46,271 nucleotides of DNA from a bacterium. Lineage in GTDB: Bacteria > CAIWAD01. Of this stretch, positions 33,371 to 40,673 are shown piece by piece. Position numbers and translations under genes: made by a program. Numbering within the stretch: the stretch's first letter is position 1; each line of letters starts with the position of its first letter. The stretch spans positions 1-46,271 of the forward strand of contig JAUIFJ010000027.1 in assembly GCA_030429345.1 (NCBI GenBank). Direction: 5' to 3'. The notes beneath the pieces were generated by a model. It saw only the letters and a program-made list of their open reading frames with translations, was not told the DNA's origin and did not search any database.

Positions 33371-33418
33371 GCGACCAGGCGATCCTTCCCCCGCGCCTTT
33401 ATGAAAGGAACCGGCCGC

Positions 33419-35503
33419 ATGAAGCTTCCCGCCCACCTCAAGACGCTGATCGACGTGGCCGCGCAACACGCCGGCGCCGCCGGTCGTGCGCTGATCACGC
33501 CCATCGATCTCCTGCAGGCCCTGCAGGTGGAACACGGGGCCGGACTGCCGGCGGAGGATCGGGAACTGGGGCAGCAGCTGCTGCAGCAGGCGCCTTCGGA
33601 TGGCCCCGCCGGTGAAGCACCCGGCGAGCTGGACGACGAGCTCAAGGAGCTGCTGGCGCGCTGGACCCGGGGCGAGGGCGGCCAGCGCCTGGACCCGGAA
33701 AGCCTGCACCGCCTGCTCCTGATGCACTGGCAGGAACAGGGCGAGGCGCAAGGGGACACGGAACTGGACGAAGAGGCCTTCCTGCAGGCGCTGTTCCACG
33801 AGGAGCTGAACCTGAACCGCCGCTTCGGCGAGGAGCCGATGCAGGGTCTGCTCGAGTATCACGAGTACCTGCCGGCAATGATGGAAGTGCTGATCCGGCG
33901 CTACCGGCAGAACCTCCTGATCTACGGTGCCCGCGGCAGCGGGCGTCACGCGGTCCTGCGACGCCTGATCGAGAACACACAGGCCGGCAGGGTGCCCGAG
34001 CTCTTCCGGGAGCGCGTGTTCTACGAGTTCAGCGCGGAAATCTTCCTGGGCGGGCTGGATGACCGCGCGGAGTTGATCCACCGTTTCGAACTGCTCTCCG
34101 CGCACCTGGACCGGCACCGGGAACTTGTCCTGGTCACCGACCAGCTGCCGGGCTGGCTGGGCAGCGACAATCCCCTGCTGCAGGATTTCGTCAACCGCCT
34201 CTTCGCCATGATGGACACGCGCAGCCACCATTTCGTGCTGCTGGCCGACCTGGGCTTTTACAACGGCGTCTACCGCACCAACCCCGCGCTGATGGAACTG
34301 CTTGCGCCCGTATACGTGGCCCCGATGGGCCGGCAGGATGTGATCCGCATCCTGGAGCAGGTGCGAGAACGCTTCGAGCAGCACTACCGCATTTCGGTCG
34401 AGGACCGGCACCTGGCGGCGGTGGTCGAAGCCGCCGACGAGCATCTCTACCAGCTGCATTTTCCCAAGAAGGCGCTGATCCTGCTCGATGTCACCCTGAG
34501 CATCCTGGCCCTGCGGCCCGAGCACGAGCGCGAATGGGACCAGGCCCTCTCGCTGGCGCTGATCCGTGTGACAGGACAGGCCCTGCGGCACTATCCGGAC
34601 CTGGAGGAGAGGCTGGCCGGCCTGGAGCCGCTGCTGAGGGATCGCGTCATCGGCCAGCAGCGCGCCGTGGCCGAGATCTGCCGCAGCCTGCGTTTCCAGA
34701 AAAGCGAGCTCGACCTGGAACCGGAGCGCCCCGACGGCGTCTACCTGCTCGCCGGGCCTTCGGGGGTGGGCAAGCAGGTCCTGGTCGACGAGCTGTCCCT
34801 GCACCTCTACGGCCGCAAGCCCTTTGTCATCGACCTGCAGGAGTATCACGATCCGGAAAGCCTGGCCCAGCTCACCGGGCAGGGCGGGGAAGCTCCGAGC
34901 CTGGCGCGCGCCCTGGCCGAGATGCCGCGCTGCGTGCTTCTGCTGAAGAACCTGGAGTACGCGGCGCCGGAGATTCTGCAGTACCTGCTGCAGTCGATCC
35001 GCCGTGGCCGTATACGGGACGCGGCAGGCGAGGAAACCTGGATCAGCGAATTGACCGTGATCCTGCTCAGCGACCTGCCGATGCTCGACACGGCGAAGCG
35101 TCCCATGGGCTTCGTCGAGGGCGAGGGACGCGACCCCTATTCCGAGGAGGGGCTGAAGGACTACTTCACTCCGGAACTCCTGCGCGCCGTCGACAAGCTG
35201 GTGCCCTTCCAGCCTCTGGACGAGCAGGCCCTGCGCGAGATCCTGCGACGGCGCCTTCTTCCCGCGCTCTGTTTGCGACTCGAACGGCTGGGCCATCGCC
35301 TGGAGGTCCCGCAGGAAGTCCTGGATCACATTGCGCGCTATGAAGCCGGTCCGGAGCGCAGCGCCAGCGAGCTGGCCCGCGATTTCCGCCGTCTGCTCGC
35401 CGTGCCGGTCAACGAGGCCCTGCAGCAGTCCTCGGAGAAGCTCTCGCTGGCAGCCAGTCTGGAGGAGGGCGAGATCCGCGTCAAGCAAGCGAAGCAGGGC
35501 TGA
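33419..35503 (+). CDS. Clp/Hsp100-like AAA+ protein with degenerate nucleotide-binding sites
   Basis: 694 residues, with class 1 Hsp100 layout: an N-terminal Clp_N-like segment (ITPIDLLQALQVEHG), a first AAA+ module (about 150-390) and a second with the ClpB-type opener LRDRVIGQQRAVAEICRSLR (from about 405). The ATPase motifs are damaged: Walker A1 reads GARGSGRH (Lys to Arg176), Walker B1 VTDQ for hydrophobic-DE, Walker A2 GPSGVGKQ (K452 kept, Thr/Ser to Gln453), Walker B2 LLLKNLE (DE to K510-N511). A ClpB-like F-x-PE-LL segment remains (FTPELLRAVD). Probably binds but barely hydrolyses ATP, perhaps as an adaptor or decoy; inference. ATG 33419 has AAAGGA nine bases upstream. It sits between the aroA and aroB groups. 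Confidence 0.75.
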   Translation: MKLPAHLKTLIDVAAQHAGAAGRALITPIDLLQALQVEHGAGLPAEDRELGQQLLQQAPSDGPAGEAPGELDDELKELLARWTRGEGGQRLDPESLHRLLLMHWQEQGEAQGDTELDEEAFLQALFHEELNLNRRFGEEPMQGLLEYHEYLPAMMEVLIRRYRQNLLIYGARGSGRHAVLRRLIENTQAGRVPELFRERVFYEFSAEIFLGGLDDRAELIHRFELLSAHLDRHRELVLVTDQLPGWLGSDNPLLQDFVNRLFAMMDTRSHHFVLLADLGFYNGVYRTNPALMELLAPVYVAPMGRQDVIRILEQVRERFEQHYRISVEDRHLAAVVEAADEHLYQLHFPKKALILLDVTLSILALRPEHEREWDQALSLALIRVTGQALRHYPDLEERLAGLEPLLRDRVIGQQRAVAEICRSLRFQKSELDLEPERPDGVYLLAGPSGVGKQVLVDELSLHLYGRKPFVIDLQEYHDPESLAQLTGQGGEAPSLARALAEMPRCVLLLKNLEYAAPEILQYLLQSIRRGRIRDAAGEETWISELTVILLSDLPMLDTAKRPMGFVEGEGRDPYSEEGLKDYFTPELLRAVDKLVPFQPLDEQALREILRRRLLPALCLRLERLGHRLEVPQEVLDHIARYEAGPERSASELARDFRRLLAVPVNEALQQSSEKLSLAASLEEGEIRVKQAKQG

Positions 35504-35890: not shown

Positions 35891-36337
35891 CTATGAAAGA
35901 CCGGCATCTTTTGCAACGGAATCCCTTCGCGGATCCTGTTTTTCCATGGCCCGCAGGAGGAGTGGCGGACTGGTTCCCTGCAGACGACAACGCAGCCCTT
36001 CCTCCTCGCCCGCGCCCACGCTGCGCACCTTGTAGCCTGACGGCCAGCGCAGGGGCGTGCTCAGCCTTCGCCCCAGGCCTTTCGCGCTGAGCATCTTGAG
36101 CAGCAGCACCAGCTTGGCCGGGGCCAGGCCTCGCGGGGCCTCGATCAGAAGCTCCACGCTGGACCCGCAACACCAGGCCAGCAGGGCCCCGTGATGGCGT
36201 TCCAGCAGCTCGCGGAAGAGGTCCTCGAGACGCTCCCGGTGCTCGCTCTTCAGGGCGAGCACCTGGTCGGCGCGCTTGTCTTTCTCGTGGCACAGGGGCT
36301 GGAATGCCAGCCAGAGCAGAATCCTTCCTTGGGTCAT
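35891..36337 (-). CDS. Small protein resembling an inactivated IS200/REP-type (Y1) transposase
   Basis: 148 residues. The stretch from about residue 45 follows the Y1 transposase plan: [17 protein letters not shown] where active enzymes have a HUH-bearing HVHLL motif, then [20 protein letters not shown] like the iv..lK..ts..l helix, then [20 protein letters not shown] like fWq.gYy..SvG. The HUH positions read S60-V61-E62, so both catalytic His are gone, and no clear catalytic Tyr is visible at the end. A perfect AAAGGAGG precedes the ATG and the frame is intact, so it may be a maintained, domesticated derivative. The similarity is by eye and moderate; an unrelated RNA-binding fold is possible. 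Confidence 0.45.
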
Positions 36338-37609: not shown

Positions 37610-38031
37610 GAATACACGTGATCAACGGTCCCAGCCTGGACCGCCTTGGCAAGAGAGAGCCGGAAATCTACGGCCGGGAAAGCCTGGAGGACATTCGCCA
37701 ATGGCTCGAGCGCCAGTGCGCGGGAGATGAACTCAGCTTCTTCCAGTCGGCGCTCGAAGGACAGCTCATCGAAGCGCTCTTTCGCGCCGAGGACGAGGGG
37801 GCAGATGGCGTGATCCTCAATCCCGCCTCCTATTCCCATACCAGCCTGGCCCTCGCCGATGCCCTCTCGGCCCTGCATCTGCCAGTGGTCGAAGTGCATC
37901 TGAGCAATATCCACGGGCGCGAGGAAATCCGCCGGCGCACCCTGACCGGCGCCTGCTGCAAGGGCGTGATCAGCGGCCTGGGCAAGTTCGGCTACCTGGC
38001 CGCCATCGAATACCTGAGGCGTGCCGGGTGA
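37606..38031 (+). CDS. aroQ: 3-dehydroquinate dehydratase, type II
   Basis: 141 residues. Dehydrates 3-dehydroquinate to 3-dehydroshikimate, directly after AroB. Type II motifs: INGPSLDRLGKREPEIYG with the catalytic Arg and Tyr, FFQSALEGQLIEALF, GVILNPASYSHTSLALADAL, VVEVHLSNIHGREEIRR and GVISGLGKFGYLAAIEYL. Forms dodecamers in the family. GTG start by GTGA overlap with aroB; its own stop overlaps the next GTG as well, tying the pathway gene to the downstream envelope gene. Confidence 0.97.
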   Translation: MRIHVINGPSLDRLGKREPEIYGRESLEDIRQWLERQCAGDELSFFQSALEGQLIEALFRAEDEGADGVILNPASYSHTSLALADALSALHLPVVEVHLSNIHGREEIRRRTLTGACCKGVISGLGKFGYLAAIEYLRRAG

Positions 38032-40673
38032 GAGCCGCGCTGCTCCTGTGCTGCGCCGCGGGCGCCCTGGCTTCCGGGCCGGAGGCGGACCACGCCGCTC
38101 GCCGGGACAGCCTGCTGAGTACCGGTCTTCTGCTGGCCAACGGCAGCGCCGCCGACCTGGCCCCCGGCCTCCTTCCTTTTGAAGAAGACAGCCTGCGCCC
38201 TGCCGCAATCGACGCGGTCCTGCGGGGCGCCCGCCTCGACCACTGGGCCGACAGCCTGGCGCGGGACTGGCAGGAATGCGACCGCCTTTCAAAGGCCGCG
38301 GAGCTGCTGCGCGCGCCCGGACCCGCCGAATCCCTTTCCCTTCCCGCCTTCGAGTTGCCCGGGCGAGGCGGAACCAAGGGGCGCCGGCAGTGGATCGCGC
38401 TGCTGCAGGACCTGTCCGGTGTGCGCTTCCTGCCCGATACGACCGTCGTCCAGCTGGAAGAGGATCTGCGCTCGCTCTACGAGGAGGACGAGGAAGAGGC
38501 GGAAGCGGATCTCTTCACTCTGGATCGACGCTATCGCGAGGGCTTGCTGGAGCGAGACCAGAGGCTGGAACGCCTGCGGGATCCCGCGCGGCGGGCTGGG
38601 CGCAGGGCGGAGAGCCTGCTTCCGCGCCTCGACCTGCTGATCGAGCACCGGGAGCAGCTGGCCGCCGCCTTCCGCGGAAGCCGTCTGCAGGAGGACGGGG
38701 ACTGCGGTCCGCTGTATTACCGGGACGAGTTCCTGCTGATCGGCGGCGAAGGGCCCAATGTATACCGCGACCCCCTGCCGCCGGTGGTGATCGACCTGGG
38801 CGGCGACGACCTGCTGCTGGCTTCCGCCGCCGTGACCCGCGGCGGCTTCTCGTGCTACATCGACCTGTCCGGCGACGATACCTACCGCTGCGCCGAAGGG
38901 CCGGCGCTGGCCATCGGCGGCCTGGCCCTGCTGGCGGACCTGGACGGCGACGACCGCTACCTGGCGGGGGATTTCAGCCTGGCCTGCGCCCTGGGAGGCA
39001 CGGCGATCCTGCTGGATCACGCCGGCGAAGACCTCTACCGCGGCGGCATGCTCAGCCAGGCCGCGGCCGTGCTGGGCAGCGCCCTGCTCTCGGAAGGCGG
39101 CGGACGCGACAGCTACGACTGCCAGCTCTACGGCCAGGCTTTCGCCGGCCCCGGAGCGGTGGCCGTGCTCAATGACCTGGAGGGGGACGACCTCTACGCC
39201 GCCCGCCCCCGGGTCACGGACTTCATCCGCTACGACGATCATTCCCTGAGTCTCAGCCAGGGTTTCGCCTACGGACTGCGCCCCGAGCTGCCCGGCGGGG
39301 TCGCCCTGCTGGCCGACGCCGGCGGAAACGACCTGTATACCTGCGACATCTACGGGCAGGGAGCGGCCTACTGGTGGGCCCTGGGGGCCCTCGTCGACCG
39401 ATCGGGCAACGATGTCTACAACAGCTGGCAATACGCCCAGGGCTCGGGAGTGCACCTGGCGGCGGGCATGCTGCTCGACGACGCGGGGAACGACCGCTAC
39501 ATCAGCAATGGTGTCTCACAGGGATGCGGGCACGACCTGGCCATCGGCTGGCTGGCCGACGGGGCCGGCGACGACAGCTACCTGAGCGGCGGCCTGAGCA
39601 TGGGGGCCGGCAACGCCAACGGCATCGGCCTGCTGGGAGACGCCGGCGGGGCGGACGTGTATACGCTGCGGGATGCGGCCAACAGCATGGGCTACGGCAA
39701 TTCGCGCCGCCGCAGCGGCAGCCTGGGGCTCTTCGTCGACGGCGGGGGCGAGGACCGGCATCCCGGCGCGGTGGTCGCGGACAGCCTCTGGCGCGGCAGC
39801 CGCCGCGGCGCCGGCATCGACGCGGAGCTGTTTCCGCTGCCCGCGTACACGGAAGAGGACAAACCGAAGGACACTCCGCCGCCCCTGGACGCGCTCTTCG
39901 ACAGCACGGGCGCGGTGGAGGATCTCTACCTCTTTGCCGTCTGGGGCACCCGCGTGCGGCATCGCTGGCAGGAGGAGAGGCGGATCGCCCATCGCGTGCT
40001 CCGCGAGCGGCAGCAGGAGTTCCTGCCCTGGCTCGAGCCGCGCCTTTCCGGGGCCGAGAGCTGGGAGCGCCACGGCATCCGCGAATGCCTGAACACCTTC
40101 GGCGAGGAGAGCTGGCCCTGGTTCCGGGCCGCGCTGGACAGCGCCGACCGGAAGAGCCGCGGCCTGCTGCTCTGGACCCTGTCCTACATGAGTGACATCG
40201 GCAGCGACAGCACCTTCGCCGCGTATTACAGGCGCATTCCCGCGGAGGAGGCCGGCAACCGCTCCCAGTGCCTGATCAACGGCGCGCGCCGCGGTCCGGC
40301 CATGCAACCGGCCCTGCTGGCGGCCCTGGACGAGGACTCGCCGCGCGTGCGGGCCGCCGCCTCCTGGGGCCTCGGGCAGGGCGAGCCGGATTCCCTGAGC
40401 CGCGAAGCCCTGGTGCGCGCCCTGGGCGACCCGGTGCTGGCCGTACGGCTTTCCGCGCGGCAGGGACTCGCCGCGGACAGCAGCCTGGGCGCCGACTGGC
40501 TTCTCGAGACCCTGGCCGGCGAAGAGACGGGCGGTCCGCGATTCCGCGAAATCCTGCGCCTGCTGGCGGAACGGGATCCCGAAGCGGCAGAGTTGTTGCT
40601 GGATCAGCTGCCGCAGACTCCGGGGCTGCAACTGGAAGGTCGCCTGCAGGGCGGGAGCGCGGAGGGCGAATGA
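38028..40673 (+). CDS. Large exported protein with D-x-x-G-x-D-x-Y repeats and HEAT-like C terminus, function unknown
   Basis: 881 residues. A short signal peptide (AALLLCCAAGALA) implies export. Residues about 250-580 hold some twelve repeats: a D-x-x-G-[DNE]-D-x-Y tag (DLSGDDTYR, DLDGDDRYL, DLEGDDLYA, DAGGNDLYT, DRSGNDVYN, DDAGNDRYI, DGAGDDSYL) alternating with Gly/Ala-rich hydrophobic strands, suggestive of a beta-solenoid with acidic, possibly calcium-binding, turns. Residues about 745-870 look like HEAT repeats (LLAALDEDSPRVRAAASWGLG, LVRALGDPVLAVRLSARQGL). The family was not recognised. The GTG at 38028 overlaps the aroQ stop, and the stop overlaps the flippase ATG, so it is coupled to both. 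A cell-surface or periplasmic scaffold is inference. Confidence 0.8.
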   Translation: MRAALLLCCAAGALASGPEADHAARRDSLLSTGLLLANGSAADLAPGLLPFEEDSLRPAAIDAVLRGARLDHWADSLARDWQECDRLSKAAELLRAPGPAESLSLPAFELPGRGGTKGRRQWIALLQDLSGVRFLPDTTVVQLEEDLRSLYEEDEEEAEADLFTLDRRYREGLLERDQRLERLRDPARRAGRRAESLLPRLDLLIEHREQLAAAFRGSRLQEDGDCGPLYYRDEFLLIGGEGPNVYRDPLPPVVIDLGGDDLLLASAAVTRGGFSCYIDLSGDDTYRCAEGPALAIGGLALLADLDGDDRYLAGDFSLACALGGTAILLDHAGEDLYRGGMLSQAAAVLGSALLSEGGGRDSYDCQLYGQAFAGPGAVAVLNDLEGDDLYAARPRVTDFIRYDDHSLSLSQGFAYGLRPELPGGVALLADAGGNDLYTCDIYGQGAAYWWALGALVDRSGNDVYNSWQYAQGSGVHLAAGMLLDDAGNDRYISNGVSQGCGHDLAIGWLADGAGDDSYLSGGLSMGAGNANGIGLLGDAGGADVYTLRDAANSMGYGNSRRRSGSLGLFVDGGGEDRHPGAVVADSLWRGSRRGAGIDAELFPLPAYTEEDKPKDTPPPLDALFDSTGAVEDLYLFAVWGTRVRHRWQEERRIAHRVLRERQQEFLPWLEPRLSGAESWERHGIRECLNTFGEESWPWFRAALDSADRKSRGLLLWTLSYMSDIGSDSTFAAYYRRIPAEEAGNRSQCLINGARRGPAMQPALLAALDEDSPRVRAAASWGLGQGEPDSLSREALVRALGDPVLAVRLSARQGLAADSSLGADWLLETLAGEETGGPRFREILRLLAERDPEAAELLLDQLPQTPGLQLEGRLQGGSAEGE

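Follow-up and report, generated by a model that had tools for sequence, protein, structure and literature searches.

The window analyzed here (46,271 nt, contig JAUIFJ010000027.1 of a bacterium of the GTDB lineage CAIWAD01) contains a gene whose product resembles the unfoldases ClpA and ClpB, while its Walker motifs deviate from those of a working ATPase. The question is whether this gene (hereinafter pseudo-Clp) is a decaying copy or a conserved protein that has lost its motor, and what such a protein may do. The comparison was made on the five available genomes of the phylum (G000-G004), all of them draft assemblies of many contigs. Features of the gene and its product are listed in Table 1.

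Table 1. Features of the pseudo-Clp gene and its product, in window coordinates
Feature	Position	Strand	Remarks
Pseudo-Clp gene	33419..35503	+	694 aa; one orthologue in each of the phylum's five genomes
N-terminal segment, residues 1-115	33419..33763	+	At most a weak Clp_N-like remnant; pLDDT mostly <50
D1 Walker A, GARGSGRH	33926..33949	+	K->R; K in G001-G003, R in G004
D1 Walker B, LVLVTDQ	34124..34144	+	Asp here and in three orthologues; Glu lost in 5/5
D2 Walker A, GPSGVGKQ	34754..34777	+	Lys invariant; Thr lost in 5/5
D2 Walker B, VLLLKN	34934..34951	+	D-E -> K-N; KN in four, ED in G004
MGF, position of the ClpP-docking IGF/LGF loop	35105..35113	+	[IMV]GF in 5/5 orthologues

Gene structure and family membership

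The reading frame of 694 codons, from the ATG at 33419 to the TGA at 35503, has no internal stops, and the impression of an intact frame without lesions, gained from the sequence alone, is thus confirmed. A second in-frame ATG is located at 33401; the start at 33419 is favored over it, being preceded by AAAGGA at a distance of 9 nt.

The best NCBIfam model is ClpA (E 3.9e-51, 174 bits, residues 117-654), with the score far below the 993-bit equivalog cut-off of this model. phmmer matches in the PDB are chains of ClpB, ClpC and ClpA (best E 1.9e-43), and the top Foldseek matches in the PDB are chains of ClpC, ClpA and ClpB. Two Clp-type AAA+ modules are present according to both the sequence searches and Foldseek, in agreement with the ClpA/B-like layout proposed initially. 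Judging by these similarities, the product belongs to the Clp/Hsp100 family as a ClpA/C-type protein with two AAA+ modules, and the homology is strong. The AlphaFold2 model (mean pLDDT 73, pTM 0.43, five-row alignment) has pLDDT mostly of 80-90 in the AAA+ modules, while the way it positions the two modules relative to each other is not to be trusted.

The Clp_N-like segment assumed in the sequence-only reading is weakly supported. There is no Pfam match to Clp_N in the window protein, and Clp_N is not among the 25 Pfam families most shared by the orthologues, while hhalign comparison of the N-terminal profile with the N-terminal regions of true Clps yields a probability of 32% over 42 columns.

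Motor motifs

The motifs were read from an alignment that also included ClpC and ClpB of this phylum and Clps from other phyla. The sequence-only reading had counted three of the four Walker motifs as damaged; the motifs themselves are as it described them, but all four are altered. The catalytic Glu of Walker B is absent from all five orthologues in both D1 and D2, as had been stated for the window protein, and Gln in the place of Thr/Ser in Walker A2, also noted then, falls in a position where Thr is lost throughout the group. The Arg for Lys in Walker A1 does stand in the window protein, but this replacement is not a family trait, since the Lys is present in three orthologues (G001-G003, which keep GxPGVGKS). 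Overall, Lys is retained in 3/5 Walker A1 and 5/5 Walker A2 motifs and Asp in 4/5 Walker B1 motifs. Walker A2 and Walker B1 are weakened rather than erased, as the Lys and the Asp persist in them. The P-loop glycine frame is also retained in the orthologues; of the motor motifs, the window protein still has these glycines, the Walker A2 Lys and the Walker B1 Asp. The combination of Walker A Lys with Walker B Asp-Glu in both rings, characteristic of ClpA/ClpC, is not found.

The alterations extend to other elements of the motor. Neither the Arg pair of the D1 arginine fingers nor the D2 Arg is present in any of the five proteins; sensor-1 Thr of D1 is absent from all of them, and sensor-1 Asn of D2 is present in G004 only (1/5). 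In D2 of the window protein, this Asn is replaced by Asp, and the GAR sensor-2 is absent. The canonical pore loops, KYRG in D1 and GYVG in D2, are missing from all five aligned orthologues. In columns whose conservation among 28 true Clps reaches 90%, the orthologues retain 2/20 pore-loop cells in D1 and 11/50 in D2, and 135/245 cells outside the listed motifs.

Hence, as far as can be judged from the alignment, the damage is wider than initially seen, taking in sensors 1 and 2 as well as the arginine fingers and pore loops of both rings, and the loss of residues expected to be responsible for hydrolysis and gripping is a trait of the whole group. The sequences give good support to the predicted loss of the motor, and on these grounds the protein is very probably a conserved Clp pseudo-unfoldase. 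With Lys in three Walker A1 motifs and an invariant Lys in Walker A2, nucleotide binding may survive.

Conservation and selection

Exactly one orthologue was identified in each of the five genomes of the phylum, all with open frames, the identity over the alignment being 44-46% for G001-G003 and 31% for G004. When the five-sequence profile was run over 386 genomes, members of the group scored above 1070 bits and the next relatives 274 bits. A search of genome contigs with the single sequence gave no matches, and the same search with the alignment yielded four loci, namely the orthologues in G002, G003 and G004 and one Helicobacteraceae Clp. In plasmid records, the matches listed comprise only Clps annotated as ClpB, ClpK or TssH, with 23-27% identity.

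The NG86 dN/dS values among the three closest relatives (G001-G003) are 0.22-0.31, indicating purifying selection. Orthologues with intact Walker motifs, which would make the changes a matter of local decay, were found for Walker A1 alone. With orthologues in five of five genomes, local decay is ruled out as an account of the degenerate motifs, as these are read from the alignment. The suggestion that the changes look selected is borne out by the presence in all five genomes, the open frames, the dN/dS values and the common loss of Glu, arginine fingers and pore loops.

A second unusual Clp-like protein is encoded in one of these genomes (G001:C59:67383-67859; L063, L078). It has an open frame of 1185 aa, IVWRIQDL as the D1 Walker B motif and intact Walker motifs in D2.

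Gene neighborhood

Upstream of the pseudo-Clp gene, the window contains aroA, an ORF resembling an aroE-aroK fusion and a gene for a class IV aminotransferase; downstream there are rpmB (on the opposite strand), aroB and aroQ. The sequence-only reading placed the gene in a chorismate-synthesis neighborhood. This link is unsupported: in G001-G003, the upstream neighbor is a divergent radical-SAM gene, and no aro gene was found on the short contig (7 kb) of G004, where the neighbors include purC. Downstream, G001-G003 retain aroB and the gene region that follows, and G001 and G002 also retain rpmB. A function in the chorismate pathway was rejected, since conservation of the neighborhood ends with rpmB-aroB and the genes that follow them, and the chorismate neighborhood looks incidental. 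No conserved operon partner was found across the phylum.

Other ORFs of the window include a short one at 35891-36337 (-) with a weak match to an IS200-like Y1 transposase and a gene at 38028-40673 (+) encoding an 881-aa protein. The C-terminal part of the latter is weakly HEAT-like, its middle part, by eye, is repetitive and Gly/Asp-rich, and similar proteins are encoded after aroB in G001 and G003.

Degenerate Clp paralogues in other phyla

The next tier of the profile search over 386 genomes includes other degenerate Clp paralogues, denoted f100, f70 and f122. The motifs are GPTGVGKRTM and FNQL in f100; GPDGVGKRAL and EQIE or AIE in f70; GPxGVGK and D-N in Walker B2 in f122, with the D2 pore loop deleted. 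Such paralogues occur in nearly all genomes of two further phylum-level groups (f100, 6/7 genomes of the phylum of G240; f70, 19/20 genomes of the phylum of G072) and of a single family (f122, 6/7 genomes) within a third, the phylum of G261. The damage in them is less uniform than in the window's group; in particular, f122 retains the D1 Arg pair, and several paralogues retain Thr or Ser of the P-loop. Those that were aligned have [ILMV]G[FY] retained. Their neighbors (CvpA and an aldehyde dehydrogenase, an M23 peptidase, TPR proteins) show no common theme.

In the tree, the window's group is placed beside f122 (support 97/92) on long branches. A single clade of all four degenerate groups is not rejected by the AU test (p 0.35), so common ancestry is compatible with the data and not shown by them. 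Recent duplication of this phylum's ClpC was rejected as the origin (AU p 0.003), with long branches in play here as well.

Several further unusual Clp proteins were observed. Two are half-degenerate, one with D1 broken and D2 intact (L118, G318:C26), the other with D1 intact and FTGLE as Walker B2 (L117, G372:C28). Two more (L079, G056:C4; L119, G244:C44), of 1059-1118 aa, have largely intact motifs and a long N-terminal extension that is TPR-like by eye.

ClpP-docking tripeptide and possible roles

Hydrophobic pockets of ClpP receive the IGF/LGF-type loop, by which ClpC is also distinguished from ClpB (PMC10149685, PMC9035409). In the alignment, the pseudo-Clp of all five genomes carries a tripeptide fitting the [ILV]GF-type loop of ClpA/ClpC (MGF in three orthologues, IGF and VGF in one each), located between D2 sensor-1 and the position of the D2 arginine finger, a feature that the sequence-only reading had not noted. 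Four aligned ClpBs from the same phylum lack it. In the AlphaFold2 model, residues 556-560, just before MGF, are of low confidence, as expected of a mobile loop. ClpP, the potential partner, is encoded in 5/5 genomes, with a ClpX-like AAA_2 gene adjoining. ClpC with intact motifs is present in 5/5 genomes and ClpB with intact motifs in G000-G003; judging by these motifs, working Clp proteins are not lacking in the phylum.

The retention of the tripeptide along with the loss of motor residues is the main pointer to a possible ClpP-linked role. The sequence-only reading left the choice among adaptor, inhibitor and scaffold, and the tripeptide tilts it towards such a role. We infer docking from three loop residues, and the tripeptide could persist for another reason.

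Several explanations compete for these observations. Decay of a pseudogene would agree with the high divergence and with the loss of the Walker A1 Lys in two members only; given that the frame is open in five genomes and dN/dS is well below 1, it is barely credible. That the protein still hydrolyzes ATP by catalytic residues shifted from their usual positions is only slightly less far-fetched: Lys in three Walker A1 motifs, Lys in all Walker A2 motifs and Asp in four Walker B1 motifs speak for it, but at the aligned positions Glu, the arginine fingers and the D1 sensor-1 Thr are absent from all five orthologues. A non-motor function, as a regulator or scaffold, is probable.

Such a non-motor protein might mix as an inactive subunit into ClpC rings and tune them. 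The D1/D2 layout is ClpC-like and ClpC is found in every genome, but the pseudo-Clp would offer its ring neighbor neither arginine fingers nor pore loops, and its recent descent from the ClpC of the phylum is rejected by the AU test above; we regard this role as improbable. A scaffold without any ClpP role, nucleotide-sensing or purely structural, in the manner of the plant SMXL proteins, deserves more weight while still being rather unlikely. Both rings are degenerate in SMXL as well (PMC12184505), and the retained P-loop glycines and D2 Lys would suit a nucleotide sensor or a structural scaffold; on the other hand, [IMV]GF is kept in all five orthologues despite the other motif losses, and ClpBs do without it.

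The best explanation as a whole, which we hold tentatively and at somewhat short of even, is a two-ring Hsp100/Clp pseudo-unfoldase that has retained the AAA+ scaffold and docks on ClpP. Nucleotide may bind to it, while useful hydrolysis and polypeptide threading would be lost. Once docked, the pseudo-Clp would act passively, capping or gating ClpP or serving it as an adaptor; resting on the tripeptide, this role is possible and similarly tentative. The docked protein would compete with ClpC and ClpX or complement them, and it would either let ClpP take already unstructured substrates or hold ClpP inactive. The extension of this scheme to several phyla, with conserved motor-dead two-ring Clps that dock on ClpP forming an unrecognized class of ATP-independent ClpP regulators, is more speculative and, as yet, doubtful.

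Comparison with known systems

A full-text literature search found no description of a degenerate two-ring bacterial Clp, whereas Clp/AAA+ pseudo-enzymes have already been described in plants, as LonC and near the nuclear envelope. The closest working relatives are ClpA and ClpC, two-ring Hsp100 proteins that feed ClpP. The pseudo-Clp shares with them the order of modules, the lack of a long M-domain and [IMV]GF at the docking position, but has no catalytic Glu, arginine fingers or canonical pore loops, and its Clp_N is at most vestigial. ClpI of Actinomycetota, which forms a class distinct from ClpB and ClpC and has members both carrying the LGF loop and lacking it (PMC10149685), retains features of ATP hydrolysis, unlike the pseudo-Clp.

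In the plant Clp-like SMXL/SMAX1 proteins, both the D1 and D2 ATPase domains are degenerate (PMC12184505). The likeness consists in degenerate D1 and D2 on a Clp scaffold, which in our case is conserved between orthologues; SMXL/SMAX1, however, are transcriptional regulators of plants and have a middle region besides their double Clp-N, while the pseudo-Clp is bacterial and carries the docking tripeptide. LonC is an AAA+ scaffold that binds nucleotide without ATPase activity, with the Walker A-like motif GPPSLGKHE and without the Walker B Glu in MtaLonC (PMC3391209). It belongs to the Lon family and has a protease domain of its own, which the pseudo-Clp lacks. LAP1 and LULL1, likewise degenerate AAA+ proteins, are partners of Torsins, ATPases of the Clp/Hsp100 family (PMC5425593), and lend an arginine finger to Torsin, while the arginine fingers of the pseudo-Clp are lost. 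None of LonC, SMXL and LAP1/LULL1 combines the two rings of a bacterial Clp with a loop for docking on ClpP. If docking on ClpP is true, the pseudo-Clp would add an ATP-free regulatory layer to a central protease, and such a regulator would be a core gene in several little-studied phyla.
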